Assembly (NCBI GenBank): GCA_024195265.1
Contig: JAJLRJ010000011.1
Span: forward strand, 25,606,292 to 25,670,291
Length of the DNA stretch: 64,000 bases
Origin: Dendrophyllia cribrosa
Lineage: Eukaryota > Cnidaria > Anthozoa > Scleractinia > Dendrophylliidae
Direction of reading: 5' to 3'
The translations under genes and the position numbers were made by a program. Positions 3,381 to 59,994 of the stretch are shown piece by piece (the stretch's first letter is position 1; each line of letters begins with the position of its first letter). Below the pieces are notes generated by a model. The model saw only the letters and a program-made list of their open reading frames with translations, searched no databases and was not told the origin of the DNA.

Positions 3381-4844
3381 CAGTCAAACCTCCCAAATAC
3401 GGTCACCAAAGGAACACAATCAATGAAGTGTCCGCATTATAGAGGTGTCCGCATTATAGAGGTGTCCGTATTATAGAGGCGTCCACATTATAGAGGTGTC
3501 CGCATTATAGAGGTGTCCGTATTATAGAGGTAAAGATTGTATGAATTTTTATATCTTAGGGACCAAAAGAACTGTCCGTATTATAGAGGTAAAGATTGTA
3601 TGAATTTTGTATTTTAGGGACCAAAAGAACAGTACGTATTATAGAGGGAAAGATTGTATGAATTTTTGTATCTTAGGGACCAAAAGAACTGTTCGTATTA
3701 TAGAGGTAAAGATTGTATGAATTTTTGTATCTTAGGGACCAAAAGAACTGTTCGTATTATAGAGGTAAAGATTGTATGAATTTTTGTATCTTTGGGACCA
3801 AAAGAACTGTTCGTATTATAGAGGTAAAGATTGTATGAATTTTTGTATCTTAGAGACCAAGATAACTGTCCGTATTATAGAGGTAAAGATTGTATGAATT
3901 TTTATATCTTAGGGACCAAAAGAACTGTCCGTATTATAGAGGTAAAGATTGTATGAATTTTTGTATCTAAGGGACCATGCAAGATAACTGTCCGTATTAT
4001 AGAGGTAAAGATTGTATGAACTTTTGTATCTTAGGGACCAAGAGAACTGTCCGTGTTATAGAGGTAAAGATTGTATGAATTTTTGTATCTTAGGGACCAC
4101 AAGAACTGTCCGTATTGTAAAGATTGTATGAATTTTTGTATCTTAGGGACCAAGAGAACTGTCCGTATTATAGAGGTAAAGATTGTATGAATTTTTGTAT
4201 CTTAGGGACCAAGATAACTGTTTGTATTATACAGGGAAAGATTGTATGAATCAGTTTTGTATCTTAGGGACCAAAAGAACTGTCCGTATTATAGAGGTAA
4301 AGATTGTATGAATTTTTGTATCTTAGGGACCACAAGAACTGTCCGTATTATAGAGGTAAAGATTGTATGAATTTTTATATCTTAGGGACCAAGAGAACTG
4401 TCCGTATTATAGAGGTAAAGATTGTATGAATTTTTGTATCTTAGGGACCAAAAGAACTGTCCGTATTATAGAGGTAAAGATTGTATGAATTTTTGTATCT
4501 TAGGGACCAAGAGAACTGTCCGTATTATAGAGATAAAGATTGTATGAATTTTTGTATCTTAGGGACCAAAACAACTGTCTGTATTTTAGAGTTAAAGATT
4601 GTATGAATTTTTGTATCTTAGGGACCAAAAGAACTGGTCGTATTATAGAGTTAAAGATTGTATGAATTTTTGTATCTTAGGGACCAAAACAACTGTCTGT
4701 ATTTTAGAGTTAAAGATTGTATGAATTTTTGTATCTTAGGGACCAAAACAACTGTCTGTATTTTAGAGTTAAAGATTGTATGAATTTTTGTATCTTAGGG
4801 TCCAAGAGAGTTGTTCTTCTTATTCGTAAAGAAAGGTTTGACAG
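3381..4844. mobile_element. Mariner-like MITE shell filled by a 59-bp minisatellite
   Basis: The ends CAGTCAAACCT (3381) and AGGTTTGACAG (to 4844) are inverted copies. The right end is followed by TA, but the left is preceded by CA, so the target duplication has decayed. Similar CAGTCAA ends flank the element at 40549-41572. Nearly the whole interior is a tandem array described separately. Confidence 0.6.
3425..4810. repeat. 59-bp minisatellite, about 22 copies, plus 18-bp pre-array
   Basis: The unit begins GTCCGTATTATAGAGGTAAA and ends TTAGGGACCAAAAGAACT, 59 bp. Copies differ by single bases (CCAAAAG, CCAAGAG, CCACAAG) and rare small indels. The array starts with a shorter repeat of about 18 bp (GTGTCCGCATTATAGAG) at 3429-3530, which looks like the seed of the longer unit. 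There are no unique spacers, so this is not a CRISPR array. The last three copies share ACAACTGTCTGTATTTTAGA, a local homogenised variant. Confidence 0.9.
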
Positions 4845-5128
4845 TAACACAAAGTAATAGAACCAACTAAAGCTGAAATACCGTTGAAATACTGAAATCG
4901 GGAAATCTTAGTGGATCCGTTACACTATCTCTGTTATCATTCACGCTTAATCGTATATCAATAACAAAATTCTCGATTGTGATTGGTCATCCACGCATCT
5001 TTCTTACGTAATTGGCGCGCGCTCACGTCGGTGTCCAATTACACCAAAGTTGCGCGCGCGTCAAACAGGTGCACTTAAATGTTTTTTTTTTTCGCGGCTG
5101 TTTCCTCCTGCTTGCAAACTGATAGAAA
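4845..5128. other. Intergenic, no gene seen
   Basis: Contains a GC-rich patch with GCGCGC and nothing that reads as coding. An A/T tract precedes the palindrome. Confidence 0.4.
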
Positions 5129-5274
5129 ATGAAACACGAGAATTTAGTTTTATCGACTGAGTCGATAAGGTAAATTGACCACCGTAAAAAGATTCAAATA
5201 GCTATTTGAATCGTTTTACGGTGGTCAATTTACCTTATCGACTCAGTCGATAAAACTAAATTCTCGTGTTTCAT
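5129..5274. repeat. 146-bp nearly perfect palindrome
   Basis: Reads ATGAAACACGAGAATTTAG outward from 5129, with the exact reverse complement ending at 5274. The centre of symmetry lies between 5201 and 5202 (AAATAGCTATTT), leaving no loop. I find one mismatch, beside the CCGTAAAA block. The body repeats the palindromic word TATCGACTGAGTCGATA on each side. It looks like a MITE whose arms meet directly. Confidence 0.85.
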
Positions 5275-6604
5275 CCCCCCACCGACGCAGCACCACAGTT
5301 TCTCTAGAAACTAACCCCACTGATTCATTTGATAGAAAATGACCTTGACATTTTGAGTACCAAAAACTCCACATAGACTTTTTAATCTGGAATCTTGTTA
5401 TTGATTCGATTAATTAGTAATCGAACTTCGTGTCACACAATTCAGGGGTAATCGTGCTCGTAATTTTAAATCGTCCTCGCGCTACGCGTTCGGCCGCTTT
5501 GAAATTACTTTCCCGATTACTCCCTGAATTGTACTCCACTCAGTCCAATTACTATTACATAAAGAACGCTCGATTATGGCTGAAGATGGCCAAAACTCAT
5601 GATTTTGTTTAGAAGCATTATAGCATTGGATCAAAACGCGAGGTAATGGCATAGAAGGGTAAAAAAGCACACTCGAAATACTCAGGAAGTCATTAACCCA
5701 TGTAATGCAGTTATATTGATTGAGTCTGTGGTCGAAATCCTATGGTGTGACCATTCAAATGAAACCTCTTCAGCAGTATTACATGTAGTATTTTTTCAAG
5801 TCATCATTTGTTTTTCAATATTTTGCAAAAAGAAATTTTGAGATTTGTGTTGAATTCTGATTTTTGGCACACTAGAAAGAGTACGGATATAGAAAACCGA
5901 TTAGCATCGGAACAAGAAGTATTCCAACAGATTCATGATTAAAAATCGAGCTCAGTAGACCAATTTTTATGAAAACATGTTATGTAGCAATGGGGAAAAA
6001 TCGCTGTAAATGTTAAGTTTGGTGCGAACGTTGTGTGACCTAATCCGATCTTAGTGAATGAAACTACCATTGATCGAATCGATCTATTTGATTGACTTAA
6101 TGCATTGATTGCATTAATCGGTTATCTTTATCATCATCAAAAATGTAATGTTAGAAAGTTATTTGTGTTGTCTTGTCAAATAATCGGAATTTAATATGGG
6201 GACGTAAACTTTTACAGTAAAGGTCTGATTTCATATAGGGTTGTATTTTTTTTTAAATAAACTTTATAAAGACAGCACAAGTGTTGCAATTTATTGGCTT
6301 CATGTGTTTCGTAATTCCGTTATAATTTAGTGAAAGCGAACTGGCAACTATGAACTTCAATAGGAATTGTACAGATCATTTGCTTTTGGGTATCTTTTTT
6401 GTTAGCCATGACATTAAGCCTGGGCAAACATGAACGAGCGTTGACAATGCTCATCTTAAAAATTGGCGGATTCTTCTTTTTCAAAGTTTTTTCCCCCGTT
6501 CATTTATCATTTATTTGATGTTGGAACAAGAAAATATTTACGCGCATGCGAGTGAAGCGAACTGCACCAGTGCATGATGGGAGGAAGACACCATCGTCGA
6601 ACAC
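5275..6604. other. Intergenic with a TTAA-MITE fragment
   Basis: No coding exon recognised. About 5720-5885 is a degenerate copy of the TTAA-flanked MITE family seen whole at 45732-45950. It shares GTGTGACCATTCAAATGAAA and TTTTTGGCAC. Confidence 0.5.
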
Positions 6605-6607
6605 TTA

Positions 6608-6789
6608 AGGCTGGTTTTCACTAGCGCATAAGCATAAGCACAAGCCAACATACGCAGACTCAGTAACGTGTTGATCATTAGTGCCTATTGTTCTGTTTTG
6701 TTCAAACAATTGGAACTAATGATCAACATGTTACTGAGTCTGCGTATGTTGGCTTGTGCTTATGCTTATGCGCTAGTGAAAACCAGCCT
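6608..6789. mobile_element. Harbinger-like MITE, copy A
   Basis: Long inverted repeat of about 74 bp per arm starting AGGCTGGTTTTCACTAGCGC, flanked by TTA on both sides (6605-6607 and 6790-6792). A 34-bp loop lies at 6682-6715. The 3-bp TTA duplication and the AGGC start fit PIF/Harbinger-type elements; the assignment is inferred from structure. Confidence 0.8.
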
Positions 6790-7412
6790 TTAGCGCACCT
6801 TTGACTCGCATGCCATTTCCAAACTCGCCCTAGAAATAACAACCGTTTATGCACAAGTCAGCTCATGGATCGTCTTAACAAGTCGCAGGCGAAATAGGAG
6901 CGCGAGAAAGAGGCATATTGGCCTTGAAGAACTCTTTTTAATTCTTCCTCAACTAATCGAATTTAAAACCGTATTTCCCCAACAAAACAATAAAGGAAAG
7001 TGGATTTATTGTTTTTTTGGGGGAAATACGGAAATGTTTTGTTGGGGGAAATGTTTCTGTGTGATTAGTCAGGTCTCATGCCATTGACCTTTAACGATTC
7101 AGTTATCTCTATCCGGCTGCATCACTGTCACAGCTTTCATTGTTACAACGTTTATTGTTACAGCTTTCGGTGTCAGCAAAGTTTCTACAAGCGCAAGCGC
7201 ATTAGAAGCAATAAAACTGCATGCGCCACCTAGGAAACGCGCGCTTTCCACCATTACGTAATTGAAACAAACACGACAAACAATACAAACAGTAAATGTT
7301 GTTGTTCTCCAGGCGATGCGTTACACTTGATTAAATTAATGTGTTTAAAACGAGAAAAAAAGTAAATAATAAATAAAAAATTATAAAATGTGTCATAGTG
7401 ATTTAGTTCACA
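6790..7412. other. Intergenic, no gene seen
   Basis: Contains a GGGGGAAATACGG-type short inverted pair at about 6960-7050 (GTATTTCCCCAACAAAAC against GTTTTGTTGGGGGAAAT). No exon recognised. Confidence 0.4.
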
Positions 7413-7439
7413 AACGTTTCGGGCATAGCCCTTCATTAG
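7413..7439 (-). ncRNA. Degenerate hammerhead-ribozyme-like motif
   Basis: Minus strand reads CTAATGA, a GGGCTATGCCC hairpin, then GAAACGTT. This matches the hammerhead pattern CUGANGA, stem II, GAAA, NUH except for G to A at the third core base. That base is normally essential, so this copy is probably inactive. Confidence 0.5.
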
Positions 7440-7616
7440 AGTGACCGTTACGTTTTCACGCGAGATCTAAGTAGTTGAATCTTTATATTTGAAATTTGTT
7501 ATGTAGCGCGAGCACGCACACTGAGAAAAATGAAGGCGAGCTCAAGCAGTAGCTGACACTGTCCCCTAGCAAACTTGAGTCCGAAAATTGTTTTGAGAGT
7601 TGAAGGAAAGCAAAAC

Positions 7617-7880
7617 ATGTCTGCTGTTGTAAATAAGTACATGCAACTAAAAGTGTCCCATGTTAAAGTAACCGCGACCGAGAGATTGCAACGAGAATTG
7701 AATGAACTGAAAAACAGAGTACGAAGGTATCATGAACACTTGGAACATGTTGAAGAAATGTGCGAGGAAACAAAGGTGGAAATTAACAGATTCAAGACAA
7801 AGGCTGAAGAACAATGTAAAATTATGAAGAGAGATTCAGCGAGAGAAGCCCAGATGATCTTGAAAGTTACACAAATGTAG
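7617..7880 (+). pseudogene. Coiled-coil open frame cut by a single TAG
   Basis: From ATG 7617 the frame gives 87 residues with strong heptad character (for example RELNELKNRVRRYHEHLEHV), then a TAG at 7878-7880. The same frame continues with more charged helix (KEMKKLKEKN) to about 8030, where MITE copy B begins. One CAG to TAG change would explain the stop. I do not recognise a family. It could be a decayed gene or retrocopy, or a chance frame; the unbroken coiled-coil character after the stop argues against chance. Confidence 0.4.
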
Positions 7881-8033
7881 AAAGAGATGAAAAAGCTGAA
7901 AGAGAAAAATGCGATATCATTGAAAGTTGAAGCGATCACGCCTATTGCGACAAGAACTGCAGCGAAATCAGATATCACTACATGTGAAGTGACGCGCTTT
8001 GTAAAAACTGGATTTGTCTTTGTTGTTGACTTA

Positions 8034-8215
8034 AGGCTGGTTTTCACTAGCGCATAAGCATAAGCACAAGCCAACATAAGCAGACTCAGTAACGTGTTAT
8101 TCATTAGTTCCAATTGTTTGAACAAAACAGAACAATAGGCACTTATGATCAACATGTTACTGAGTCTGCGTATGTTGGCTTGTGCTTATGCTTATGCGCT
8201 AGTGAAAACCAGCCT
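8034..8215. mobile_element. Harbinger-like MITE, copy B with flipped loop
   Basis: Same family as 6608-6789. The left flank is TTA (8031-8033); the right flank is AAA, so the duplication is mutated. The 34-bp loop (8108-8141) is the exact reverse complement of the loop of copy A. The arm-specific bases (AACGTG on the left, AACATG on the right) keep the same order in both copies. Confidence 0.8.
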
Positions 8216-8834
8216 AAACGCTCCTCTTAAACTTTTTCAAAAATTGAATTCCAACGGATGCGTGACACTTATAAATAAGAATTTAAAATATATAATATTG
8301 GAAAAATAAAATCGAGTTTTTTTTGTGAAAGTATCAAGTATATTTCATCAACGACGTTTCAGGCTAAGCCCTTCATCGGTTTGATAAACGCGACTCGATT
8401 AGTCCGTAAAGAATTATGCCGCCGGATTCCATATGTTACGGAGAAAATGGATTGCTCTGTTGAAATTGCCAGGTTTGTTTAAATGTTTTTGTAAAATACC
8501 TGTATTAACTGTTTATAGGTTTTCTAGACGTTTTAGATACAACCGCTTTCATGTGTCGAAAATACACGGTTAATGAACCGTTGAAACTGCACGCGCATCT
8601 TGTGTCGTAGATGCACTGCACACAGACTGCTGAATAGCGCAAATGTAAATGCATGCGCAGTGTTCTTCAGCTCTGTCTGCACTGCAAACTAATTGTGCAC
8701 GCGCGAGAAGAGCGAATACTTTTTTCAATCTAACTAAACAATAACCCCCGGCTACACGTTCTAACATCGTTATATAACACGTCCGACAATAGATGAATAA
8801 TAATGTTGGACGGACGGCTAAACGTCATTCAACT
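8216..8834. other. Intergenic apart from one hammerhead-like motif
   Basis: No coding exon recognised. The hammerhead-like motif at 8353-8379 is listed separately. Confidence 0.4.
8353..8379 (-). ncRNA. Degenerate hammerhead-ribozyme-like motif
   Basis: Minus strand reads CCGATGA, AGGGCTTAGCCT as stem II, then GAAACGTC. It differs from the hammerhead core CUGANGA only by U to C at the second base. It is probably an inactive relative of the 9316 motif. Confidence 0.5.
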
Positions 8835-9315
8835 TTACTCCAACATTGTTAAAGTTAGCAAAAATGTTTGATCGAAATCACAGCATTCATCCAAAAACAG
8901 ATGTCGCAGATAGGTTCGGCGAGCACCTCTGCTCTGTGGATGGCTACAATAACAGCCAACGGTATTGCAACGGGGGATTCTCCGTTGCCGAACATTCAAC
9001 CAACCGGGACACGACTCAATCAACAACATGTCGGTGTCGGTGATAAAGAAAGTCATGGAAGCAATCACCACGCCGCAACAGAGGGAAGAAATGAGGCTAA
9101 TCTTTCGACACAAGACCTTGGCGCTTCATGGAATTAACATTGACTTTAAATTCTAATTTTCCATGAGGTTACATTAGCTTCATTTTTCATTCTCTGTCGC
9201 ATTTATGCACGCTAAGCGCGCGCTCGAATTCGCGTTTTATTTGAATATTTTTGAATGGCGAACACACGACAAATTTTACGTGAGCACGAGCGTTTATCTC
9301 GTGAGAACATAAACA

Positions 9316-9343
9316 CTGATGAAGGGGTTATCCCCGAAACGTC
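9316..9343 (+). ncRNA. Hammerhead-ribozyme motif with intact core
   Basis: Reads CTGATGA (9316-9322), a 4-bp stem GGGG/CCCC closed by TTAT (9324-9335), GAAAC (9336-9340), then GTC as the candidate cleavage triplet (9341-9343). All the invariant core bases of the CUGANGA...GAAA...NUH pattern are present. GTTTAT and ATAAAC flank CTC GTG AGA AC upstream and could form a stem I hairpin beside the core. Stem III would be only the self-complementary ACGT, so pairing between two units may be needed. That arrangement is described for minimal hammerheads in Penelope-like elements and animal retrozymes. Activity is inferred, not shown. Confidence 0.6.
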
Positions 9344-9449
9344 TGACTGTCTTTGTAACAGTTTTTTTCAGCACTCAATCTTAACTAAATTTCAATATTA
9401 TCATACAAAAACAATTGTTGGTCAAACACCAACTAACATAGCATGTTAA

Positions 9450-10682
9450 ACGTTCTAACATTGCTGAACCTACAAAATGTTGTACAACAATGTTAGAAAG
9501 TGTAGCTGGGGTTTAGCATCCCCCACTTACGAGTGGATCCGCCCCTGGCTAATCTCTTACTCAGATCTCCAACGGTCAGTGCAAGCACGAGTGAGATCTG
9601 GGTACGAGATTACCCCCTGACTTTCTCAATTTCGTTTTAAAGAGTAAAGAATCTCTACTCTCGTTATATACTACTATCTTGCTTCGTATAAAAATGACAT
9701 ATGGCAACATATGATTGAAATACTTTATTTCGTATTTATTTTGCCAAGACTTAAGTGTTATATAAGCTGAAGGCACTCTTGTGAAATCGAAAAAAAAATC
9801 GATATTCACTTTAGTCGTGTAGTAGATATGGAACAAGAAAACTTTAATTCAGTTACACATTGCAGATTCCATGTTAGGTTAAGGTCATTCTAAAAATGTC
9901 TGTAGAGTACTGCAAAACTGTTTCTTCCAGTCTGATAATGTACACGATAATGGCGACAAGACAGACAAAACAGTTTCCTAGCAACATGCTGATATTTAGC
10001 GGACTATTGCTATCTCAGTTCGGCAATCCACGAGTCGGATTTGATTGAATCGCTGGCTAACATCGCCAGCTTGCACCAGTCGGCCTCAACATGGTGGCGA
10101 GGTTGTTGGTACAATGACCTCTGCACCGTGACCATGACAACGCGCGTTTCAGTTTTTGAAATGCTCTGATAGCGCACAAAGGGTTTTTTTGGGTATTTTA
10201 TGCGTACGAATTGTTCGTGATAGATAAAATGACGAAACTAGCTAATGACTAAAGCTACGATGTACGAATCGAATGTCATGATTACTAACGAACAATAAAC
10301 TCGTGGAAACGGCCCGGCAATACAAATTAACGCTTTTTATAACTTTGTAACTGAATATATTGACGAGTTGTGACGAAATGAATCTCAAAAAACATCCATA
10401 GAGGGAGTCATATAGTATAAGAGTATGAACAATACGAAACATGACGATTTATAAACATATATGAAAACTGCATGAATGAAAGAAACTTTTGTGGTATGTA
10501 TTACTTTTTTCTTCTTTTTTTTAACAGAATAACGAATACGCGAAATTTTTACTCTGTGCCAACCCGTGTGTTGTGATGAAACGAAGCATTATTTTTTGGA
10601 ATATCGCTTTAGCCTGGTAAAATGTCTGAGGACTCGAGTCCTCGAGTGAGCTCTGTGGTCCTTGCTCCATAGATTTGTCGGT
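9450..10682. other. Intergenic, repeat fragments
   Basis: 9552-9608 matches one end of the element at about 41950-42583 (CACGAGTGAGATCTGGGTAC). No coding exon recognised in the rest. Confidence 0.45.
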
Positions 10683-11501
10683 TCAAACGGATGTCTCGGT
10701 GAATTGAGGTATGTTTAGCAATCTGTCTTCGCCGTCCAAAATATGGTTTAATAATACCTCGCTGTTGAACTTCTTAGGACCTCGCATTTCAAGATCTGAA
10801 GCGTTCAGCCATTTCTTTAGCACCCTTGGTGAAGCATCCCTCGCTTCTTTCTCGTCAACAGGATTGTTCAAAGAAGGGTACAAAAGTGGTGCCGAAATAA
10901 CTCCAATGTTTTTGCAGTGCGCAAATTTTTGCTCGGGCTCAAACTCGTGCGCGATGTAGCGCGCAGATGGCTGATGTTTGCCGATAGTGACGTCATACCC
11001 TAACTTCTGAAGTTGTTCAAGTCGCTTCATTTCTTCCTTGCTTTCAATGAGGTACACATCCTTTATTATGTCTCTAAAACTGACCTTTTTAACTCCTGTT
11101 ATCTCCACACTTCCGAAAGGCACAGTTCCCAAATCATCATTCTCCTCGCAATCGGAATTTTCCGATCCATACATTTCGTACCATTTTCGATTGACTTCTT
11201 GTAACATTTGCGCCTTGGTCAGCCGCGGTTTGCTCCCTTTCTTTGTTTTGCGGCGTTTAATTTGCCTTTTCCTGACACTTTCAACCAACGGAGACTCCCG
11301 CATGTCACTCATCCCGCCAGATGTTCGCGTCGAGGCGGTGAGAGAGTAGAATAAAGGAATTAATGCAAGGATGAATCCGAAAACCAGAAAAGGAATCGCC
11401 ATTGTTGCATACACACGGAGAGCAAGTCCTTCTGTTTCTGGCTTCGGAGCTTGCGAGTGAGCTTGAAAAGTCCAATTAAAAATGTTCGACAGAGTCATCA
11501 T
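10683..11501 (-). CDS. Uncharacterised single-pass membrane protein, 272 aa
   Basis: An intronless minus-strand frame from ATG 11501 to a stop at 10683. A hydrophobic segment at about residues 32-55 (IPFLVFGFILALIPLFYSL) is the only membrane span. It is followed by a dense basic stretch at about residues 77-93 (RKRQIKRRKTKKGSKPR), which by the positive-inside rule puts the C-terminal 210 residues in the cytosol. The tail mixes an acidic patch (SENSDCEENDD), a KWYEMYG motif and a folded-looking region with KKLGYDVTIGKHQ-like content. There is no cleavable signal peptide, because the first 30 residues are polar. I do not recognise a family. The length, composition and absence of repeats suggest a real, possibly cnidarian-restricted gene. 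Its neighbours give no functional clue. Confidence 0.75.
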   Translation of the reverse strand: MMTLSNIFNWTFQAHSQAPKPETEGLALRVYATMAIPFLVFGFILALIPLFYSLTASTRTSGGMSDMRESPLVESVRKRQIKRRKTKKGSKPRLTKAQMLQEVNRKWYEMYGSENSDCEENDDLGTVPFGSVEITGVKKVSFRDIIKDVYLIESKEEMKRLEQLQKLGYDVTIGKHQPSARYIAHEFEPEQKFAHCKNIGVISAPLLYPSLNNPVDEKEARDASPRVLKKWLNASDLEMRGPKKFNSEVLLNHILDGEDRLLNIPQFTETSV

Positions 11502-14128
11502 GACGGCGAATCTGACTTAGTAGAAACCATCGTTCAATTCTTGGACAGCAGAACTTTCGTCATGTAAACTCAAGACCGAATAGAATATTTTTCGCTACAT
11601 AAAACTGCATCAAGTGAAGACGGCCAATCGATGATGTAACCTGGGTTGAGCGCGATTTATAGCAAACGTGTTTATAGATTGTATACGCTGAATTAATTAC
11701 TGAATATGATTCGATTTAGTGCAAATTATATGTATTACGTCATTAATAGAATGATTGAGGTAATCCGGCATGGCACCGGTATTTCCTTGGGTTAAATTAA
11801 TTTGTACCCATGTTATTAAATCATATTTAAAATTAAAAATAAAAGTATTTTCCTGTTTTCTTAAAATGCTAAAAAGAGTCGGCATTATAATTGTAATGGA
11901 AAAAGGAAATTTATGTAAACGCGAGGGAAATAGTAATATTAACTAAACCCAGCTGTTTCAATTTCTACCACACTTTTACGACAGTAACTTTACCTCATTC
12001 AGCCGGTCTGGTTTGGCGGCGTGATACCCAGGTCCAATGAAATTAGAGGTTGCTAATTAAGAGCTGCGTGATATCTGCTGGTTTGGATAGAGGGACACTA
12101 ACTTTGAACATTCATAACTTTCTTAATGTTAAAGAACACACCACCAAACTGCGTGACTTTTCTTAAAGTTTATCTTGCATCAATTTGGTTTGACATTTCA
12201 TTGTCCACGTGACTTAATGTTTCCATGGCAACAAGTTTGTGACAGCCATGTTTTTTCCCGTTTAATGAAAGCATTTAAGGTTATTGTCTTAAAATTTACA
12301 TTTGTATACCATTTTAGCGTTTTATTATTAGTTTTGATTACTTTTAAGTCAATTTAGACGGTTTTGAAGTTTTGAAGAAATCAACAGGCTTCCGGTCTGA
12401 CGGCGGGGTCATGCTGAGAAGGGAAGCCTGCACGCATCCTTCAAAATCGCGGCTGCCGCCCACAAGAACCCGCGGATTGCTTTAGCTTGTCAACTGTCAA
12501 ATTTTAACCAATCAGCACACCCCGGAAGTCAAAATTCAAAAACAAGGTAAACAAATGACGATACACATGAAATCTAGGCGCCCGGTCGCTCGCGAGCGCC
12601 ATGTCTCACGGATAAACTCCCAAAATTACCATACTTTCAGCCTCTGCAATTCAATACCTTAAAGCGGATAAAGTCATTATAAATAAGAGTACGTTGTTTT
12701 GTTACAGTTAGCCGAAAACCATCTCCGAGTTATTTATAGTTCTTGTCGCTTGGCTTCGCCGTGTTTGTTTACACACGCAATTTCAGCGGTCGGTCGTAGT
12801 TAAAAAAAAAAAAATCCTTCAGAAGCTGTAAAACAAATAAAACCGTCTGCGAAAATAATTCGAAAGCCGCTAGCAACGAAAAATAATTCATGAACGTTTC
12901 ATTAATCACGAACGAATTGGTCATTCAGCTGGCATTTCTGGGACTCCAGGACATGCACTGCACGTTAACTCTGATCGCGAACCCGCCGTAGAATTCAGAA
13001 CTGACTGAAAGAGTCGGATAAAAATAATTCTGATCAGAAAGACGACAATAATTCAGAAGAAATCGACAAAACTATTTTTAACCGAGTGACAAAATAGACA
13101 ACCGATCGCTTATGGCTTCGCCGCTCATGGTTACAGCTCCTCGTGAAGATAAAACAAAAATCCGCTGCCTCCCCAGGCAAACTACCAAGAAGCTTATTGA
13201 ACGGCGATTCAACCCATTCAAGACATGTTTATTATATTTAAACTTTACGCATTGAATGACGAAATTTTCATTGACGAGTTGTTTTAATACACACCCGTTC
13301 GCCAGAATGTCTGCACGCACTCGTCACAATGTCTGGGATTCTGAGAAATGTTTCATGTACTCGAATTAGGGATTGAGTGAAAACGTTACTCTGTACCGGA
13401 CAAAAATAATTCTGAACAGAAAGAAACGAGTAATTTCTCTAATAATTTCTAATTTCTAATTTCTCTACCGGAAATGAAAAACAACGATTACGTCATGAAT
13501 AATTAAAATCCACCAATCAGCGCTTCCAGGTTTGCGTCCAAAATTTGGACGCAGACATTCGATATTCTGAAACTCGCGTGCAGGCTCCCCTTCGTTGCCG
13601 GCGCTTCGCGCCGGAAAATAGCGCCGCTCCGAACCAGGAGCCTGTTCGCAGGCTAAGTACTCGTTTCCCTCAGAATAGTCAATCGGGTGATCACGCGAAA
13701 ACTAATCCTTTTATCCATGAAAGATACGAGGGATAACTCGCAGTCTACAAATATGCGATCACCTCTCATTACAGGGGTTTTCATTTGAGTGTTGAAAGTA
13801 ATTTCACAATTGCCTTGGTTTTGCATTGCTACGGTATGAGATTGGCTAAGAAATCTCGCGCCACTTTCTCGACCAATCAGAAGTCAAACCAAAATAAATC
13901 GTGATTTACCTGTAAGCGTTCTCCCGCGCTTGGCGCCGGCTGCATGTATTCGCTTCGAGCACCGATTGGTTCATTGGATTGTTTACGACTGTTTTGATTA
14001 GTCAGAGGAGGTAATTTGAAGAGTTGGCGACATCATTGATTCGTAGCAGGATTCGATAACATATATATAAGAACAGATATACTTACATTATAAAAACAGA
14101 TATACTTACATTATAAAAGGGACGCTCT
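11502..14128. other. Intergenic, mixed repeats
   Basis: No coding exon recognised. 13590-13660 has GCCGGCGCTTCGCGCCGG, a strong GC palindrome. About 13790-14030 is one copy of a dispersed repeat whose second copy lies at about 28010-28225 (shared ATTGGTTCATTGGATTGT). 14073-14119 is a two-copy tandem repeat built on ACAGATATACTTACATTATA. Confidence 0.5.
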
Positions 14129-41500: not shown

Positions 41501-44500
41501 GGGACCAAGACAACTGTCCATAATAACGAGGTGTCTGTATTAAGTGGATGTCCGCAAAGCGGGGTTTGACTGTACCAGATTTCATTTTGCAAGATAGCTA
41601 TAAACAAACAGCGGTTGTTTTTGTTGTTGTAGCAGTTATTGGCAGCGTACACTTGTAGTTGAGTGGTTAGGGTACCAGACTTGAAAGCCGGAGGTCCCGA
41701 GTTCCAGTCCCGCTCTGACCACTTGCTTGAGTTGTTTCATGATAGACCCGAGTTGAACTCCTCGGCCACGCTTGTGAAATAGCCAATGGGTCTTCCTCCA
41801 GCCAGTTGGGATTTCTTAAATTGTTTTGTTCTATTTGCAATATCTGTTTCTTCTTGATGAAAAGTAATTAAGGGAAGTGGTCATAACAAGTATACTAAAA
41901 AAGGACCCACCTTGTGTAGGGGGTCTATGCAAGATATCACCTATTAACCTCGTACCCAGGTCTCCCACAAACAGGCAGCAGGGAGATCCAGCCGATTCGC
42001 ATATAATTAACCGCATATAAGCGAGTCTAATTAACATCAAATTACCGCATGCAATTGGTTAAAGTAGGCCCAATTCACCTACTGAGAAATAACGAAAATA
42101 GAGCTGATCTCAAACTGGCTTTTGTCTTTCACTTGAACATTTTACATAAAGTAAAACTCCCTTTTTTAGTAAAAGAAAGAAAAAGATCAGAAGGGTGTAC
42201 GCCTTGAACCCGAGTCGTTTGCTTCATAACTAATACCCATATCCACTACACCAAGGAGGGCTAGCTGAGAGAAACTGTAATTTTTAACATATTTATAGAG
42301 TTACCCATAACCATAAATGAAAGCTAACCGTTTTAAAATCAGAGCTTAACCCTAAACACTGCAGATCAGTGCTAAACTGGAGCTATTTTCTTTCAGTTCT
42401 GTGTCTAACGTTAGTAATATAAAGAATACTACTGTTAGGTAAATAGGGCCTATTTTACCGCTTGTATGCGGTAATTTGATGTTAATTAGACCCGCTTATA
42501 TGCGGTTGATTATACGCGAATCGGGTGGGAGATCTCACATTTCAGTACAGTACAAGCACGAGTGAGATCTGGGTACGAGATTTACCACCTATCTGACGAG
42601 CCTATTGGACAACATTTATTGGCGTAAAAAATTGAGATGAGACTTTAATATTCTGTGTGCATAAAGTTTACGTTGCTACAAAAACAGCACAGGAAGGTTT
42701 GACTCTCTTTCTCAGTGGAGTGGGCGCTATACCAACAAGACCACCAGTCTTTTTGTCAAATGGTGTGTCCTGTCCTAGTACTATAGTTTTGACCATTTCA
42801 CTAAGTATTTGTTTATCTTTTCCCTATTGCTATTTGTTGTTTTTATTGTTGTTGTTTTTGCTATTGTTATTGTTTTGTTGATGTTAACGTTGTTGCAAGG
42901 AAGGTTTGACGTTTATTCTTTGCTGTTTTACAGAGAAGTCATTGAGAAGAAACCAGAGGAATTCAAGATCGCTTGTTTACGAGATATTCAGAGCTTGTTC
43001 CCGACCAGCAGAAATCCCTTCCATGCTGGATTTGGAAATAAAGTCAATGTGAGTTGATGCCATTGTACCTCTGGCTTCTCAAAGTGTTACAATAAATAGC
43101 CGACATAGCATTAAAGAAGCTCTAAGTGTTACATCACCTTTTGATATTTTTAGAAGAAAATGGACTTCAGTCCACGTCAGTGTAATATCTTGGCTATGCA
43201 TAACATGTAGCAATTTTGTTCGGCAAACCGCTTACCAGTGACTTTCTGTTGTCCACAGGACGTGCTCTCTTACCGCGCGGTTGGTATCTCTGTGTCCAGG
43301 ATTTTCACAATCAATCATAGGGTAAGACGTTACTTACGGTGGAACTCGCCTAGCGGCCACCCCGTTATTCGGCCACTTTTTTCCACTTTTTTTAGCCCGT
43401 AGAAAAGCTAAGCTATATAAACATACACGAGTCAAACCTCGTTAATATGGCCAGATTTTGGTGGCCCAGTAATGGCCGAATTAACGACGTTCCAATGTAG
43501 TTGAATTTAAAAGACTTCATTTTTAAGACCTGAACGTGTGAAAAAAAAAAAACACGGATTTTGAAAACTGGGGGTATCCCCAGTTTTAGGTGAAATGTAT
43601 GTCATCATGTGACGCGTTTTGCGATCGTAAGTAGGCATTTTAAAAAGTCATTTTAAATCAATGTTTTTTTTTTTTTTAAACTAAATTTTGGTGGCTTCTG
43701 TCCACCTTCGTCAGAGTGGAGAAAGTTCGTTGGTGCTCGGCTCTGTGCGAGGTCCATGAGCGCTTGCTTTCTGTGATGTATGTAAATGAACAGTCGTTGC
43801 GCTTTACTTTGTAGCAATTCCTCCGTATATGCGGTTAACTGTTGGTCGGTCCTTGGGCTTTTTGAGTACACATGGTCAAATGTTTTTACTGGCTAATTTT
43901 ATTGGTAATTAGTATATTTTATTCATATTCCAGGGAGAAGTAAGACATGACCTGACTAATGCCTTCCAGACCTCGTAAGTATATTACTTTGATAAAATAT
44001 CTTTGGCGTGCCTCAAGTTTAACTCCTTCTTTCCCAAAGGTGGCAAAGGTAGAAACAAGAGGAAAATGCCAAGTTTTATTTTGCAAAGTAACTAGGAACA
44101 AACATTGCTAAATGATAGTATTACTCACGAGTTATCATTTGTCTCACTTAAGGATTTTATCCATAGATTCAAAAGTTAGAATCACCTTGTACAGTACAAT
44201 AAACATCACCACAGGAAAGTACTGCTCAATAGCTTTCATTTGAATGGTCACATTTTAGGATTTCATCCACAGACTTAAAAGTTAGAACCACCTTGTACAG
44301 CATAATAAACAGCACCACAGGAAAGTACTGCCCAATAGCTTTCATTTGAATGGTCACACTTAAGGATTTTGTCTTCAGACTCAAAAGTTAGAACCACCTT
44401 GTACAGCATAATAAACAGCACCACAGGAAAGTACTGCCCAATAGCTTTCATTTGAATGGTCACACTTTAGGATTTTGTCTTCAGACTCAAAAGTTAGAAC

Positions 44501-44918
44501 CACCTTGTACAGCATAATAAACAGCACCACAGGAAAGTACTGCTTACGAGCGTTCATTTGAATGTTCAAATTAGAATTTCATCAACAACCCAAAAAGCTA
44601 GAATGACTTGTTACAGCAAAGTAAACGGCATGGACACAGACTCTAAAACCATGCTATATTTGGGGTTTTTACTTCTGACGATTAAAGGATTAACATCAAA
44701 TTCCGTCGCTGGTCAGGTACATAAAACTTAGTGACTTGGTGGACCAAATGTTCCCGCCATTCAAGACTGAGGGCCTACCGCCCTCGGGGCTCATAGCGCC
44801 TGATCAGTTTAGTTCCTTTACTTACTGGAGAGCGCCCCTACCCAGCATTACTGTTGAAGAACTTGGTGATATTGATGACGATAGAAGTGAAGGGACTGCT
44901 TCCAAACAGAAACTATAG
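16608..44918 (+). CDS. Lipin, phosphatidate phosphatase (complete gene, 25 coding exons)
   Basis: Lipins are Mg-dependent phosphatidate phosphatases that make diacylglycerol for triglyceride and phospholipid synthesis at the ER and can also act in the nucleus as co-regulators. I assembled 25 exons with GT-AG junctions and consistent phases; the sum is 2,760 nt, or 919 residues plus stop, which is normal for the family. Order of landmarks: N-LIP domain (residues 1 to about 115, starting [19 protein letters not shown]); a low-complexity acidic and serine-rich linker; a middle conserved part with YYNWQIA and [10 protein letters not shown] (about 519-572); and the C-LIP HAD domain from about 630. 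The catalytic DIDGT spans residues 693-697 (nucleophile Asp693), the LxxIL motif LGQIL is at 704-708, and YLSARAIG is at about 736-743. The ATG is chosen because it starts the universal N-LIP sequence. The weakest junction is the donor of exon 6. Introns carry nearly all the transposons listed here. Confidence 0.96.
18588..18746. repeat. Palindromic MITE in lipin intron 1
   Basis: TGTTGTAGGTTAAAATTATT at the left and its reverse complement at the right, with arms of about 70 bp containing TTTTCCTTTGTC. A related but diverged copy lies at about 28535-28690, and fragments at 20340-20405. Confidence 0.7.
19629..19805 (+). CDS. Lipin exon 2
   Basis: Residues 61-119, starting [18 protein letters not shown] and continuing GEAFFVEE, the second half of N-LIP. 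CAG acceptor, GTGAGC donor, phase 0 both ends. Confidence 0.95.
20457..20825 (+). CDS. Lipin exon 3
   Basis: Residues 120-242. A long, polar, acidic and Ser/Thr-rich linker with no fixed fold expected, ending TESSSE at GTATCA. Phase 0 both ends. Poorly conserved in lipins, so support comes from the open frame and splice phases. Confidence 0.85.
22123..22221 (+). CDS. Lipin exon 4
   Basis: Residues 243-275, [16 protein letters not shown] onward to DSETM. TTTCAG acceptor, GTACAG donor, phase 0. Confidence 0.82.
22610..22713 (+). CDS. Lipin exon 5
   Basis: Residues 276 to about 310, [20 protein letters not shown] then [14 protein letters not shown] acceptor, CAG/GTGAAA donor, ends with 2 nt of a codon. 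Confidence 0.85.
23428..23578 (+). CDS. Lipin exon 6 (3' end uncertain)
   Basis: Starts by completing a Ser codon; [12 protein letters not shown] then [10 protein letters not shown], the W-x-WG-x-LP motif of lipins. Two phase-0 donors are possible: GTTATT after 23557 or the better GTAACT after 23578. The longer form adds VIDLDTV. Transcript data would decide. Confidence 0.8.
23871..24285. repeat. Tandem array, about 106-bp unit, lipin intron 6
   Basis: Three to four units containing CAGGAAAGTACTGCTCAATA and TTGAATGGTCACACTTTAGG. The unit is the interior of the TTAA-flanked MITE family (see 45732-45950) in reverse orientation. Confidence 0.75.
24415..24454 (+). CDS. Lipin exon 7
   Basis: A 40-nt micro-exon, [13 protein letters not shown] plus 1 nt, between TTTTTCAG and GTACAG. 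Its phases fit exons 6 and 8 exactly. Confidence 0.78.
24638..24711 (+). CDS. Lipin exon 8
   Basis: [20 protein letters not shown] then KSHHK, residues about 374-398. Basic KVKRR segment. GAAGCAG acceptor, GTACAT donor. Confidence 0.78.
24958..26178. mobile_element. hAT-like element with 5-bp duplication, level 3
   Basis: Ends CAGGGCTCGAAATT and AATTTCGAGCCCTG. The flanks CAATT (24953-24957 and 26179-26183) are a 5-bp target duplication, proved by the uninterrupted right arm of the level-2 MITE. Just inside each end are GGTCGCCAGCTGGCGACT-like blocks. The ends suggest hAT (5-bp type); no transposase is present. Confidence 0.65.
25065..25828. mobile_element. Mariner-like element, level 4 of the nest
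   Basis: Flanked by TA on both sides. The ends carry ACACCGGCGTATAAGCCGCA (left) and the reverse complement with GCCGGTGTTTACGG (right). The outermost left bases have diverged. No transposase frame seen. Confidence 0.6.
26635..26955. mobile_element. MITE immediately before lipin exon 9
   Basis: Ends GGCCCGTTTACACATGTGAT and, on the right, TGTGTAAACGGGCC. TTTA flanks on both sides (26631-26634, 26956-26959). The interior has ATTTTTGTCGC and its inverse. Confidence 0.75.
26991..27070 (+). CDS. Lipin exon 9
   Basis: [20 protein letters not shown] onward to HQAL. Acceptor TTCTTGCAG lies only 35 bp after the end of a MITE (26635-26955). GTAAGT donor, ends with 2 nt of a codon. Confidence 0.9.
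27620..27736 (+). CDS. Lipin exon 10
   Basis: About residues 425-464, Gln- and Ser-rich ([20 protein letters not shown]), ending KDM plus 2 nt at GTAATT. Confidence 0.88.
28010..28225. repeat. Dispersed repeat, second copy
   Basis: Shares GATTGGTTCATTGGATTGT, GTGCCGGCTACATG-like words and the overall order with about 13790-14030. The two copies diverge throughout but align along most of their length. Confidence 0.55.
29242..29312 (+). CDS. Lipin exon 11
   Basis: [20 protein letters not shown], matching the conserved SLCGGL-type motif of lipins. ACTAG acceptor, GTAAGT donor. Confidence 0.9.
30212..30624. mobile_element. MITE in lipin intron 11
   Basis: Ends GGCCCGGTTCAGACGCC and, inverted, GGCGTCTGAACCGGGCC. 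The word AGCCGAACTTA recurs inside both arms. The left flank is TTA, the right ACC, so no clean duplication. Confidence 0.75.
30753..30846 (+). CDS. Lipin exon 12
   Basis: [20 protein letters not shown] then [11 protein letters not shown], the conserved middle region. TTTTTGCAG acceptor, CAG/GTGAAT donor. Confidence 0.93.
31524..31593 (+). CDS. Lipin exon 13
   Basis: [20 protein letters not shown] then PLKQ, the highly conserved YYNW block. Ends phase 0 at GTAACT. Confidence 0.94.
31887..31928 (+). CDS. Lipin exon 14
   Basis: 42-nt exon [14 protein letters not shown], phase 0, GTTAGC donor. It corresponds to the conserved MP-K-K segment before the WFSWR motif. Confidence 0.9.
32078..32125 (+). 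CDS. Lipin exon 15
   Basis: 48-nt exon [16 protein letters not shown] with the lipin WFSWR signature. TTTTTAG acceptor, GTTAGA donor, phase 0. Confidence 0.94.
32605..32969 (-). pseudogene. 3' end of a LINE reverse-transcriptase ORF
   Basis: The minus-strand translation shows [20 protein letters not shown], then an in-frame stop, then [20 protein letters not shown] to NHFEL and stop. The NTR...P...W-x-x-LP-x-EL pattern is the usual C-terminus of non-LTR retrotransposon polymerases. Broken and truncated; lies in lipin intron 15. Confidence 0.55.
33049..33282 (+). CDS. Lipin exon 16
   Basis: Residues 573-650. Acidic and basic charged linker ([20 protein letters not shown]), then the conserved [12 protein letters not shown] that opens the C-LIP region. 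GTAAGA donor, phase 0. Confidence 0.93.
33407..33851. mobile_element. hAT-like MITE with ACTATA duplication
   Basis: Ends GAGGCCCTGCCAGGG and CCTGGCAGGGCCTC. ACTATA flanks both sides (33401-33406, 33852-33857). Interior has many GCGACA words. In lipin intron 16. Confidence 0.75.
34139..34440. mobile_element. Degenerate TTAA-MITE with internal duplication
   Basis: Starts CTCTTTCACTCCCAGAGTC and ends GGCACTCGTGGGAGTTAA. The block with GTGACCATTCAAATAAAACC is present twice (about 34190-34265 and 34275-34350), an early step toward the arrays at 44 kb. Confidence 0.6.
34473..34535 (+). CDS. Lipin exon 17
   Basis: [20 protein letters not shown] then Q, the conserved N-x-I-x-FSVTT-x-YQ motif. CACAG acceptor, GTAAAA donor, phase 0. 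Confidence 0.95.
34670..34905. repeat. CCAACAGT-rich interspersed repeat
   Basis: Many copies of CAGTCGGCCAACTGTTGG-like half palindromes spaced irregularly. Fold-back potential but no clean ends seen. Confidence 0.5.
34997..35082 (+). CDS. Lipin exon 18 with catalytic DIDGT
   Basis: [20 protein letters not shown] then SDIDGTITK. The first Asp of DIDGT is the phosphatase nucleophile of the HAD family, and the second is the acid/base. The exon ends inside the next Lys codon (AA/G). The following intron carries the 3.76-kb IS3EU-like element. Confidence 0.97.
35777..37547 (+). pseudogene. IS3EU-like DDE transposase (broken)
   Basis: An N-terminal frame begins inside the left terminal repeat ([20 protein letters not shown]) and stops at about 36049. 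Further pieces read [20 protein letters not shown] (helix-turn-helix, about 36174-36270), then DVEMRDL and [21 protein letters not shown] 441-bp MITE follows at 36538-36978. The integrase-type core resumes with NALWHIDG (first Asp), RSDRGGKN (second Asp) and [13 protein letters not shown] (Glu), and ends with [17 protein letters not shown]. All three catalytic acids are kept. Several stops and frame breaks (for example TAG at about 37062 after DGYSRLIT) show it is dead. Confidence 0.78.
36538..36978. mobile_element. Mariner-like MITE inside the transposase
   Basis: 441 bp with ends CAGTAAACACCCGCATAT and its exact inverse, flanked by TA (36536-36537, 36979-36980). It interrupts the codons just before WHIDG. 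Joining the flanks at one TA gives the family-typical NALWHID. Confidence 0.85.
37784..37973. repeat. Nested palindromic MITE
   Basis: TTTATTATATAAACACCAAT at the left and its inverse at the right. Interior CTTCACACGTGA occurs twice. Lies between the transposase and the right terminal repeat. Confidence 0.65.
37976..38112. repeat. Nested near-perfect palindrome
   Basis: ATTACATGGCCGCTTGAAGA opens it and TCTTCAAGCAGCCATGTAAT closes it, so the arms match but for a few bases. The centre is CACTCGTTCGCTGCGCTCAC. It directly adjoins the previous MITE. Confidence 0.7.
39411..39471 (+). CDS. Lipin exon 19 with LxxIL motif
   Basis: [20 protein letters not shown], containing LGQIL, the LxxIL motif used for nuclear-receptor co-activation in vertebrate lipins. 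TTGTTTCAG acceptor, GTAAGT donor. Confidence 0.97.
40095..40166 (+). CDS. Lipin exon 20
   Basis: [20 protein letters not shown] then AIGQ, HAD-fold strand with the conserved Ser-Ala-Arg. Phase 0. Confidence 0.97.
40354..40460 (+). CDS. Lipin exon 21
   Basis: [20 protein letters not shown] then [15 protein letters not shown], with the conserved LP-x-GPLLLSP. Ends with 2 nt of an Arg codon. Confidence 0.97.
40549..41572. mobile_element. Mariner-like element in lipin intron 21
   Basis: Ends CAGTCAATCCC and GGGGTTTGACTG, flanked by TA on both sides (40547-40548, 41573-41574). The outer parts carry GTCCTTATTAACAGGGTGTC and GTCCGTATTAACGAGG words, related to the 59-bp minisatellite at 3.4-4.8 kb. 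A TTAA element is nested inside. Confidence 0.75.
40676..41261. mobile_element. piggyBac-like MITE nested in the above
   Basis: Ends CCCTTTGACTCCCAA and its exact inverse, with TTAA on both sides (40672-40675, 41262-41265), the hallmark of piggyBac-type insertion. No transposase. Confidence 0.8.
41645..41860 (+). mobile_element. tRNA-derived SINE
   Basis: The head at about 41653-41725 has an A box (TAGTTGAGTGG), an anticodon-like arm with ACTTGAAAG (TGA anticodon, serine-like) and a B box (GAGTTCCAGTCCC). The tail is unrelated sequence. The acceptor stem does not pair well, so it is a SINE rather than a tRNA gene. Confidence 0.65.
41950..42583. mobile_element. Large MITE with CTCGTACCCAGG ends
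   Basis: CTCGTACCCAGGTCTCCC pairs with GAGATCTGGGTACGAG. Inner blocks CCGCATATAAGCGAGTCTAA and CATCAAATTACCGCAT are mirrored around 42480. A solo end of the same family lies at 9552-9608. Confidence 0.65.
42190..42258 (-). mobile_element. tRNA-like SINE head inside that MITE
   Basis: The minus strand reads TTGGTGTAGTGGATATGG (A box-like), then GGGTTCAAGGC (B box-like), spaced as in tRNA. No good acceptor stem, so probably a SINE remnant. Confidence 0.4.
42934..43048 (+). CDS. Lipin exon 22
   Basis: [20 protein letters not shown], then [12 protein letters not shown], with the conserved REVI-x-KKPE and GFGN motifs. Phase 0 end. Confidence 0.97.
43259..43321 (+). CDS. Lipin exon 23
   Basis: [20 protein letters not shown] then R, the conserved D-x-x-SY-x-x-VG-x-x-x-x-RIF-x-x-N motif. 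Phase 0. Confidence 0.97.
43934..43974 (+). CDS. Lipin exon 24
   Basis: 41-nt exon [14 protein letters not shown], split Ser codon at GTAAGT. Confidence 0.94.
44150..44575. repeat. Tandem array, about 106-bp unit, lipin intron 24
   Basis: About four units, nearly identical in the middle, each with TTAGAACCACCTTGTACAGC, AATAAACAGCACCACAGGAA and CATTTGAATGGTCACACT. Reverse-orientation interior of the TTAA-MITE family. Confidence 0.85.
44717..44918 (+). CDS. Lipin exon 25 and stop
   Basis: [20 protein letters not shown] onward, with [11 protein letters not shown], the conserved aromatic C-terminal motif. Acidic tail, TAG stop at 44916-44918. Confidence 0.96.
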
Positions 44919-45104: not shown

Positions 45105-45690
45105 TTGAAAGTACTGCTCATTACTGAGCTTTCTTTTGAAAGGTTACGCTGAGGATTTCATCCACGAACTTAAAAGCTAGAACCACTTTGTACAACGAAA
45201 TAAACAGCACCACAGTAAAGTACTGCTCAATAGCTTGCATTTTCACTCGCTGACTCAAGTGAGAATCACTTTGTACAGCATAATAAACAGCACCACACGA
45301 AGGTACTGTTCAGTAGCTTTCATTTAAATGGTCGTACTATAGGATTCCACAGACTAAAACGTTAGGACCACCTTGTACCGCACAATAAACAGTACCACAG
45401 GAAAGTACTGCCCGATAGCTTTCATTTGAATGGTCACAAATTAGGATTCCGTCCACAGACTCAAAAGTTAGAACCACCTTGTACAGCATAATAAACAGTA
45501 CCACAGGAAAGTACTGCTCGATAGCTTTCATTTCAATGGTCACACTTTAGGTTTTTCATCCACAGACACAAACGTTAGAACAACCTTGTACAGCAAAATA
45601 AACCGCACCACAGGAAAGTACTGCTCATTAGCTTTCATTTGAATGGTCACACTTTAGGATTTCATCCACGGTCTAAAAATTGAAAATCAG
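45105..45690. repeat. Second 106-bp unit array, just after lipin
   Basis: About five diverged units of the same sequence as 44150-44575. It follows the lipin stop by about 190 bp and so may lie in the 3' UTR. Confidence 0.75.
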
Positions 45691-57594: not shown

Positions 57595-59811
57595 CTGAAA
57601 AAATACAAGGACCAAAACGAATCTACGATGAATGTCTGTTTTCAAATTACATTTCACATCATTTTGCATTACACATACATTTCACCGGCTCGGGGTTTGC
57701 TTTGCGCTTTTGCAAAAAAATCAGTTCACAATTATAGTAAAGACACATGTTTGTCTGCAAATATATGTAAAACCTTTTATAATTTGTCTCCCCTACGTAG
57801 AAAAATCAATCGTGTGCTTTGCGAATCGCGGTGTGAATCTTATTTGTGTACAGTAAATGATTATAGTTGCAAATTTAACTGCTATCGTAAGCGAACAAAA
57901 ATAATTTAAAGATCTTTTTTTGAAATTGTACTAATGAACCGAGTAGAAGTCACATCGAAGGAATTACAGCAGCTATTTTCTTTTAAATGGAAATAAAGCG
58001 CGCTTAGAAGACATGATCAAAGTTTACATACCCGAGATGGATTGTTCGAACGTGCCGAATTATTCCGGGAGCGGTTGAGAGGGTTTTCCCGCAGCCGGGC
58101 CAAGTACACTTGTATAAGGTCTTCAGATTGGAATTTGATGATGTGGAATTCTGAAAAAAAAAATAGCTAACAGTTATTTCACTGAAGACTTGCTTCTAGC
58201 ATGTACAGTTCGTTAGGAGGCGAAATGAGCTCGGAGTGAATTCAACCGGGAACCGGAACAAATGCGAAAATAAACAGAGGCGAGCGAGAGATGCCGTGCA
58301 AAGACTTGATCGAAGGTGTAAAATTGTTGATAGACAAAAAAAAATAATAAAAGCTCGCCCAGACAGTTCTACAGCTGCAATACCAAGTTACAAGTTTTAG
58401 ACTTTTACATGTAATGTCTGTGATCTGCCCTAAAAAGCAGTTTGTTAGCCTTTATGCAAGACCGGTATTGAACGTGGTATACCTCGAGGTCAATGCAGTA
58501 AACAACTTTTATCCCGACTTCTTTAGAACGGAATTTAATAGATCGATTTCAGCGTTACAGACCTTTCTTTTGCGTGTGTTCTCGTGTCGGTGAAAATCAA
58601 CTCCAATTCCTTCGTCCACTGGCGAAGGTGGACCGTTGAAGAAAAAGTTGGAATCTTGCGTGTGAATTGGAGAATTTGAATGGGCCGGCGAGTTCGTCGG
58701 GCTTGGATAGTGTGCCATTTCAGAACCGGAGTCCGGCGTCAAGGGAAATTCAAAATTCGCTTCATCCACTGAAAAAAAAAATAATAATAAACTATATTAT
58801 TTAATGCTAACAGTAGCAGAAATTAGTGCTATCACAGCACAAATGACGGAAATTCAACGTTTGCAAAAACACCTCGAGTGTTAAAAGGCGAATGAATTGT
58901 AAGCTTAAATAATAAGAAAGTGTGTTCGGATTAGCACGAGCCAAAAAAATACAATGAATGGAATAATTTTTCGAATATTCAACTTACCGTGATCCACATC
59001 CTTGAGAACTGGGGAGATCGATAAAGCTGTGAGAACCAGAGCAGCCATTTCCTCGCTTCTCGTAACATTTTCTTGGCGTTTTGTGCAGCCCCTATGAAAA
59101 GAAAGTGGTTTAGAATTTAATGAAGGGATAAAATAAAGAGCAAACTAATGTCAAAACAAAAGAACACAAAAATGGCTCGATCTAAAAGTTTTAAAATCCG
59201 AAATAAAGCTCTTTTCTCCTAACCACAAAGAAGTAGAGAATAACGTAACTGAATGAAAACAAAACCAGGTATTTTTTGTACGTGCTTGTTCAAACGTTAA
59301 CTTACTTGCAAGATTTTATTCCATGTGCTCGCATTTTGCAAGGCACCGGGCACGAAATGGACGAGATGGAATTGTTCATGGACTGAATCTCGTGAACTGA
59401 CTCAGTAAACCTCTCTCCTTTCATAAGGTGAATCTCCTCGGGTCTTAGAGCCACCACTGTGTCCTGATAGTCCAGGATTTTTACTAAGACTTCGTTGAAT
59501 TCTGAGCGGGTCGTTAGAACTCGTGCTTCCATTTCGCGGCCTTTGAAGAAGATAAAAACGTTCTGTCCGTCCTTTAAAACTGTGTCACCGGCATCGTTAA
59601 ATCCAGGACCAACAATTTCTCCCTCGTCCACCTCAGCTATATAGTCGTCTTCAAATAAAATAGTATACGTATTTTCGCCGGTAGGCTTGCTTTTAACCGC
59701 CTCGATGACACCGCTGTAAAAATAACCATCTTTCCACGGTGCACACACACGCACACCAAGAAGGGAATTTTTTGGGCGCCGTCTAAGCGAAAACATTATT
59801 TCCTCCAGCAA
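57144..59811 (-). CDS. ZNF395/ZNF704/SLC2A4RG-family transcription factor (Glut4EF type), complete
   Basis: Five coding exons on the minus strand with consistent phases sum to 1,386 nt, 461 residues plus stop. Human relatives are about 390-510 residues. Order: an N-terminal Tudor-like module (about 15-130; [40 protein letters not shown]); a cysteine segment [18 protein letters not shown]; a Ser/Pro linker; a C2H2 finger at 287-310 spaced C-x4-C-x12-H-x4-H; the family signature [15 protein letters not shown]; and a C-terminal C-clamp at 434-456 spaced C-x12-C-x2-C-x5-C. The C-clamp binds GC-rich DNA in this family. Vertebrate members regulate GLUT4, Huntington-disease-gene and metabolic promoters; in a cnidarian the targets are unknown. 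ATG 59811 gives [16 protein letters not shown] 59796 (MFSLRRRP) is an equally possible start. Confidence 0.93.
58032..58150 (-). CDS. Glut4EF-type exon 4 with C2H2 finger
   Basis: [20 protein letters not shown] then [25 protein letters not shown] acceptor, GTATGT donor, ends with 2 nt of a Gly codon. Too short to stand out as a long open frame. Confidence 0.93.
58563..58768 (-). CDS. Glut4EF-type exon 3
   Basis: [20 protein letters not shown], a Ser/Pro-rich linker, ending ENTRKRK. The donor is GTCTGT, weaker than usual, but phase 0 fits exon 4. The frame would otherwise run on to a stop at 58509. Confidence 0.85.
58988..59091 (-). CDS. Glut4EF-type exon 2
   Basis: [20 protein letters not shown] then [19 protein letters not shown] acceptor, GTAAGT donor, ends phase 1. 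Confidence 0.92.
59306..59811 (-). CDS. Glut4EF-type exon 1
   Basis: Residues 1-168 plus 2 nt, the Tudor-like module and the start of the Cys segment. GTAAGT donor. Confidence 0.92.
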
Positions 59812-59994
59812 GTCGTGGAAAAAAATTGTCGATATCCGTCAGAAATTGAATATTTTCTCCCGTTACATCGGAACCCGTTAAAACTTCTCGTGCGAAAAAC
59901 TCGCTGATTGAAATCACTATTTTGTTGTTGTTTTTACGGCGGATTTTGGGGGCGTTTACCAACCCCTGTGGCGATCTGCTTCTGTCGAACGCTT

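Follow-up and report, generated by a model that had tools for sequence, protein, structure and literature searches.

Layout of the locus

The window (the whole stretch of 64,000 nucleotides of Dendrophyllia cribrosa DNA that was analysed) carries on its plus strand a 28-base site (9316–9343) in which the hammerhead core is complete. The site starts with CTGATGA (9316–9322) and an extra A (9323), continues with the two strands of stem II (GGGG, 9324–9327, and CCCC, 9332–9335) around a TTAT loop (9328–9331), and ends with GAAAC (9336–9340) and GTC (9341–9343), with the putative cut after position 9343. These letters confirm the original prediction, which had placed CTGATGA, a GGGG/CCCC stem, GAAAC and GTC in this order within 28 bases of the plus strand. 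At least one natural hammerhead tolerates an extra A after CTGATGA. In type I hammerheads, stem I is the open stem and joins the bases before C3 to the bases after the cut site; the strands in these two positions here (9304–9315 and 9344–9355) can pair in part with each other in register.

We also identified two related copies on the minus strand, which are named after their first core bases, 7439 and 8379. The 7439 copy (7413–7439) reads CTAATGA, A, GGGC, TAT, GCCC and GAAACGTT, and has an A in place of core G5. The 8379 copy (8353–8379) reads CCGATGA, A, GGGC, TTA, GCCT and GAAACGTC, with a C in place of core U4. The core CUGANGA...GAAA is exact in the 9316 copy and has one substitution in each of the other two, and the two decayed relatives that had been proposed within 2 kb are thus borne out, both on the minus strand. 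In every copy, CTGATGA or its variant is followed by the extra A, and GAAACGT by C or T. Each has a 4-bp stem II, in which the fourth pair is G-C in the 9316 copy and C-G in the other two. None of the three has non-conserved bases in helix III, and GAAAC runs straight into GUH at a junction that reads GAAACGTC in the 9316 and 8379 copies and GAAACGTT in the 7439 copy. Homology of the flanks appears modest, both upstream (p 0.013 for 9316/7439, 0.014 for 9316/8379 and 0.69 for 7439/8379) and downstream (p 0.74, 0.78 and 0.067 for the same pairs).

Genomic surroundings

The 9316 core lies, together with an open stretch near 8880–9157, inside a 774-bp segment (8742–9515) with 38-nt terminal inverted repeats. 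The left arm (8742–8779, plus strand) is 84% complementary to the right arm (9478–9515, minus strand; BLAST E 9e-6). The segment looks like a non-autonomous DNA transposon. Such a transposon may have captured a hammerhead of the type found in Penelope-like elements (PLEs) and spread it as cargo, a scenario that we regard as quite unlikely; if it were true, the transcripts of the element would gain a cut site. A search of the six frames of 6001–13000 (stops read as X) for the Pfam domains of PLEs (RT and GIY-YIG) returned none at E ≤0.1, and the sole Pfam match at this level was DUF763 (E 0.09), far below its cut-off.

Several other features were noted in the window. Near the 7439 copy, a coiled-coil-like frame starting with MSAVVNKYMQ (7614–8027, plus strand) contains one in-frame stop. 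Two fold-back repeats (6603–6793 and 8029–8218), 1426 bp apart, each consist of two arms, some 90 nt long, around a 12-nt loop; several Rfam microRNA families match the second below threshold. Tandem arrays occupy 3514–4809 (59-bp unit, 22 copies, 92% matches) and, with a 106-bp unit, 44141–44630 (4.6 copies) and 45262–45669 (3.9 copies). A plus-strand frame at 37068–37547 matches the Pfam integrase core domain rva_4 (E 1.4e-54). Two minus-strand open reading frames have relatives elsewhere: 10683–11516 has 29, the best at 86% identity and one in Oculina patagonica at 48%, and 59302–59838 has 27, the best at 88% identity. Linkage of these two genes may extend to a relative.

Motif and covariance searches

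Assembly of the core letters by chance is extremely unlikely as an explanation of the site. A loose pattern (CTGANGA, N6–30, GAAA) is not rare, with 8 matches in the window against 4.55 expected and 7 of 100 shuffles reaching 8. A relaxed core combined with a 4-bp stem II and GAAACGT was seen once across 200 shuffled windows. We also used a strict descriptor (CTGANGA, 0–1 nt, a stem II of at least 4 bp and GAAACGTH), assembled from the elements of the minimal type I layout as published, against dinucleotide shuffles. This comparison was not blind, since the descriptor was built once the sites were already known; it gave one exact site in the window (9316, plus strand), against zero in 1000 shuffles. 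When up to one core mismatch was allowed, it gave the three related sites (9316 on the plus strand, 8379 and 7439 on the minus strand), where the shuffles gave 0.021 on average and never more than 1. Two other loose hits, at 2611 (plus strand) and 62973 (minus strand), were rejected as further copies: they are without GAAACGT and score E 7.4 and 1.6 with a covariance model of the three copies. Pattern searches of viral and genome contig collections returned no match. A looser pattern found one viral-contig locus and three genome-contig loci in these collections, none of the four with an Rfam match; with three of the four sites inspected, we take them as chance occurrences in prokaryote or phage DNA.

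The covariance model of all three copies recovers those three in the window and no convincing fourth copy, the next matches being at E 0.13 (8517–8565, minus strand) and 0.72. A model built from the two minus-strand copies, run with filters off, detects 9316 at E 0.0021; no other additional match falls below E 1, the next standing at 2.3. In 9316 it covers only positions 9–39. The same two rows without structure find 9316 at E 0.00098 (default filters). Because the sequence-only model also detects 9316, stem I gives no independent support for this copy. On these scores, the 9316 copy is a relative of the 7439 and 8379 copies at the level of sequence, and structure contributes nothing to its detection. 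The Rfam hammerhead models, run over the whole window at gathering level with no known minimal PLE hammerhead as positive control, had no match; local Rfam scans by E-value had 5, 3 and 11 sub-threshold matches, none of them to a hammerhead.

The original prediction had also allowed for a retrozyme, an element with a canonical type I hammerhead that is made as circular RNA. Retrozymes occur in coral genomes, where their full hammerheads are described as lying in tandem repeats of 220–240 bp (PMC7229834). As far as that account describes them, their hammerheads have the same core class as the copies studied here and probably a similar host group. However, they also have full helices, loop-loop contacts and the 220–240 bp tandem units, none of which is found at this locus. 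Helix III is missing, the Rfam hammerhead models give no match and no tandem array overlaps 4810–14065. Metazoan retrozymes are recognized by a canonical type I hammerhead in tandem units about 170–400 nt long, a combination not found here. The local evidence contradicts the retrozyme, and we consider it very unlikely.

Stem I

On its own, the stem I of the 9316 copy is weak. Seven of its first 10 positions pair, and the stem is interrupted at pairs 3–4 by A.A and A.C mismatches. Its duplex energy of -2.5 is equalled or bettered by 80% of shuffles (p 0.80), and its register has p 0.04; the duplex energies of the relatives have p 0.16 (7439) and p 0.05 (8379). Among the first 7 positions, 5 pair in the 9316 copy, 5 in the 7439 copy and 6 in the 8379 copy, and the longest runs are of 3, 4 and 8 pairs (positions 2–9 in the 8379 copy), respectively.

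Taken as a set, the three copies support stem I pairing in this register against slid ones. In a three-row alignment of stems I and II, 27 of 33 cells pair (81.8%), a count that includes the loss of one stem II pair in the 9316 row, where the alignment puts the loop gap one column off. Sliding the strands by 1–3 columns (six registers) lowers the proportion to 21.2–42.4%, and 10 of 500 column shuffles reach 27 of 33. Four stem I pairs are changed on both sides, a number reached by 43 of 500 column shuffles.

A different stem I had been proposed, namely a hairpin just upstream of the core in which GTTTAT (9292–9297) pairs with ATAAAC (9309–9314). The letters are present, but the assignment is wrong: the topology forbids it, because the hairpin would take up the 5' strand of the true stem I. 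The hairpin (9292–9314) is a competing fold at most. Furthermore, the minimum-energy fold of 80 bases around 9316 uses a CACGAG/CTCGTG hairpin that is mutually exclusive with GTTTAT/ATAAAC.

Alternative folds and prospects for cleavage

In all three copies, the energy minimum buries the core by pairing GATG with CGTC (AATG with CGTT in the 7439 copy). In each copy, the monomer hammerhead fold is less stable than the minimum by 3.8 to 4.1 kcal/mol, and the symmetric dimer fold lies 15 to 22 kcal/mol above the dimer minimum. Since these energies omit tertiary contacts, metal ions and protein, they weigh against easy activity without excluding activity. We think that the 9316 copy would at best be a slow ribozyme without a present role, and that both minus-strand copies are dead.

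The folding results also raise the prospect that the conserved element is a non-ribozyme hairpin, made of GATG/CGTC, an internal loop of AA and GAAA, stem II and an extension by stem I, which would serve the same transposon family as a structural or protein-binding element. Not only is this hairpin the minimum in every copy, but the core change from G to A in the 7439 copy is matched by a change from C to T in its partner, so that the two positions still pair. However, this is one matched change in one copy and may be chance. Furthermore, the literature assigns the layout to hammerheads. The Poseidon PLE from Anolis carolinensis, named PAc, is described as dependent on C3 and G8 and as partly rescued by the double change, as in a hammerhead (PMC11167929). 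We therefore regard a purely non-ribozyme hairpin as unlikely. The hammerhead and the core-burying hairpin could both hold, as alternative folds of the same RNA.

Relationship to PLE hammerheads

Minimal type I hammerheads without helix III were reportedly described in PLEs and Terminons by Cervera and de la Pena in 2014 and by Lunse, Weinberg and Breaker in 2017. According to one publication, minimal type I hammerheads number in the thousands in many metazoan genomes. As a rule they lack the helix III bases that are not conserved; most are dispersed in non-coding DNA, some reside in PLE pseudo-LTRs, and they may cleave as dimers (PMC7761336). In the coral Acropora millepora, the count of type I motifs is given as more than 6000; of these, 1508 are canonical and the rest resemble the variants of PLEs and Terminons (PMC7229834). 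Other reports also place hammerheads in PLEs and Terminons (PMC6155905, PMC6431247).

Within what these sources describe, the three copies resemble the minimal hammerheads of PLEs and Terminons in the order of their parts, the lack of non-conserved helix III bases, the GAAAC-GUH junction and the dispersal in non-coding DNA. They differ from them in that no PLE protein was detected nearby, two of the three copies have a core substitution and the stem I of the 9316 copy is interrupted. The PAc hammerhead likewise consists of stems I and II only. It cut only when the PAc protein was present, and catalytic mutants left insertion unaffected (PMC11167929). Unlike the copies described here, however, PAc is reported as an element that is intact and carries both a pseudo-LTR and an ORF, with cutting that depends on its protein.

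We conclude that the 9316 site is probably a PLE-linked minimal type I hammerhead, one of three diverged and dispersed copies. Membership among the minimal hammerheads is well supported by the layout of the sequence, and the three copies would descend from PLEs. In our reading, they are fossils, the dispersed remains of minimal hammerheads of the PLE type. Of the original prediction, the Penelope-type reading is supported in the form of a Penelope-associated, hammerhead-type core without helix III and with two decayed relatives within 2 kb.

In the proposed architecture, stem I would be open at both ends, stem II would be closed and stem III would be reduced to the two bases on either side of a palindromic ACGT. 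If one RNA carried two of these motifs, the ACGU of one could pair with that of the other as a common stem III of 4 bp, whereupon both cores would cut after their own GUC. The idea that ACGT could form stem III only between two copies had been put forward from the letters of the site, and it agrees with what is published on dimers (PMC7761336).

The locus adds three examples to a motif already known in thousands of animal-genome copies. Two aspects are mildly new: one copy lies inside an inverted-repeat element, and an alternative hairpin that buries the core is common to all three copies. The core-burying hairpin may bear on why minimal hammerheads need a dimer or a protein.
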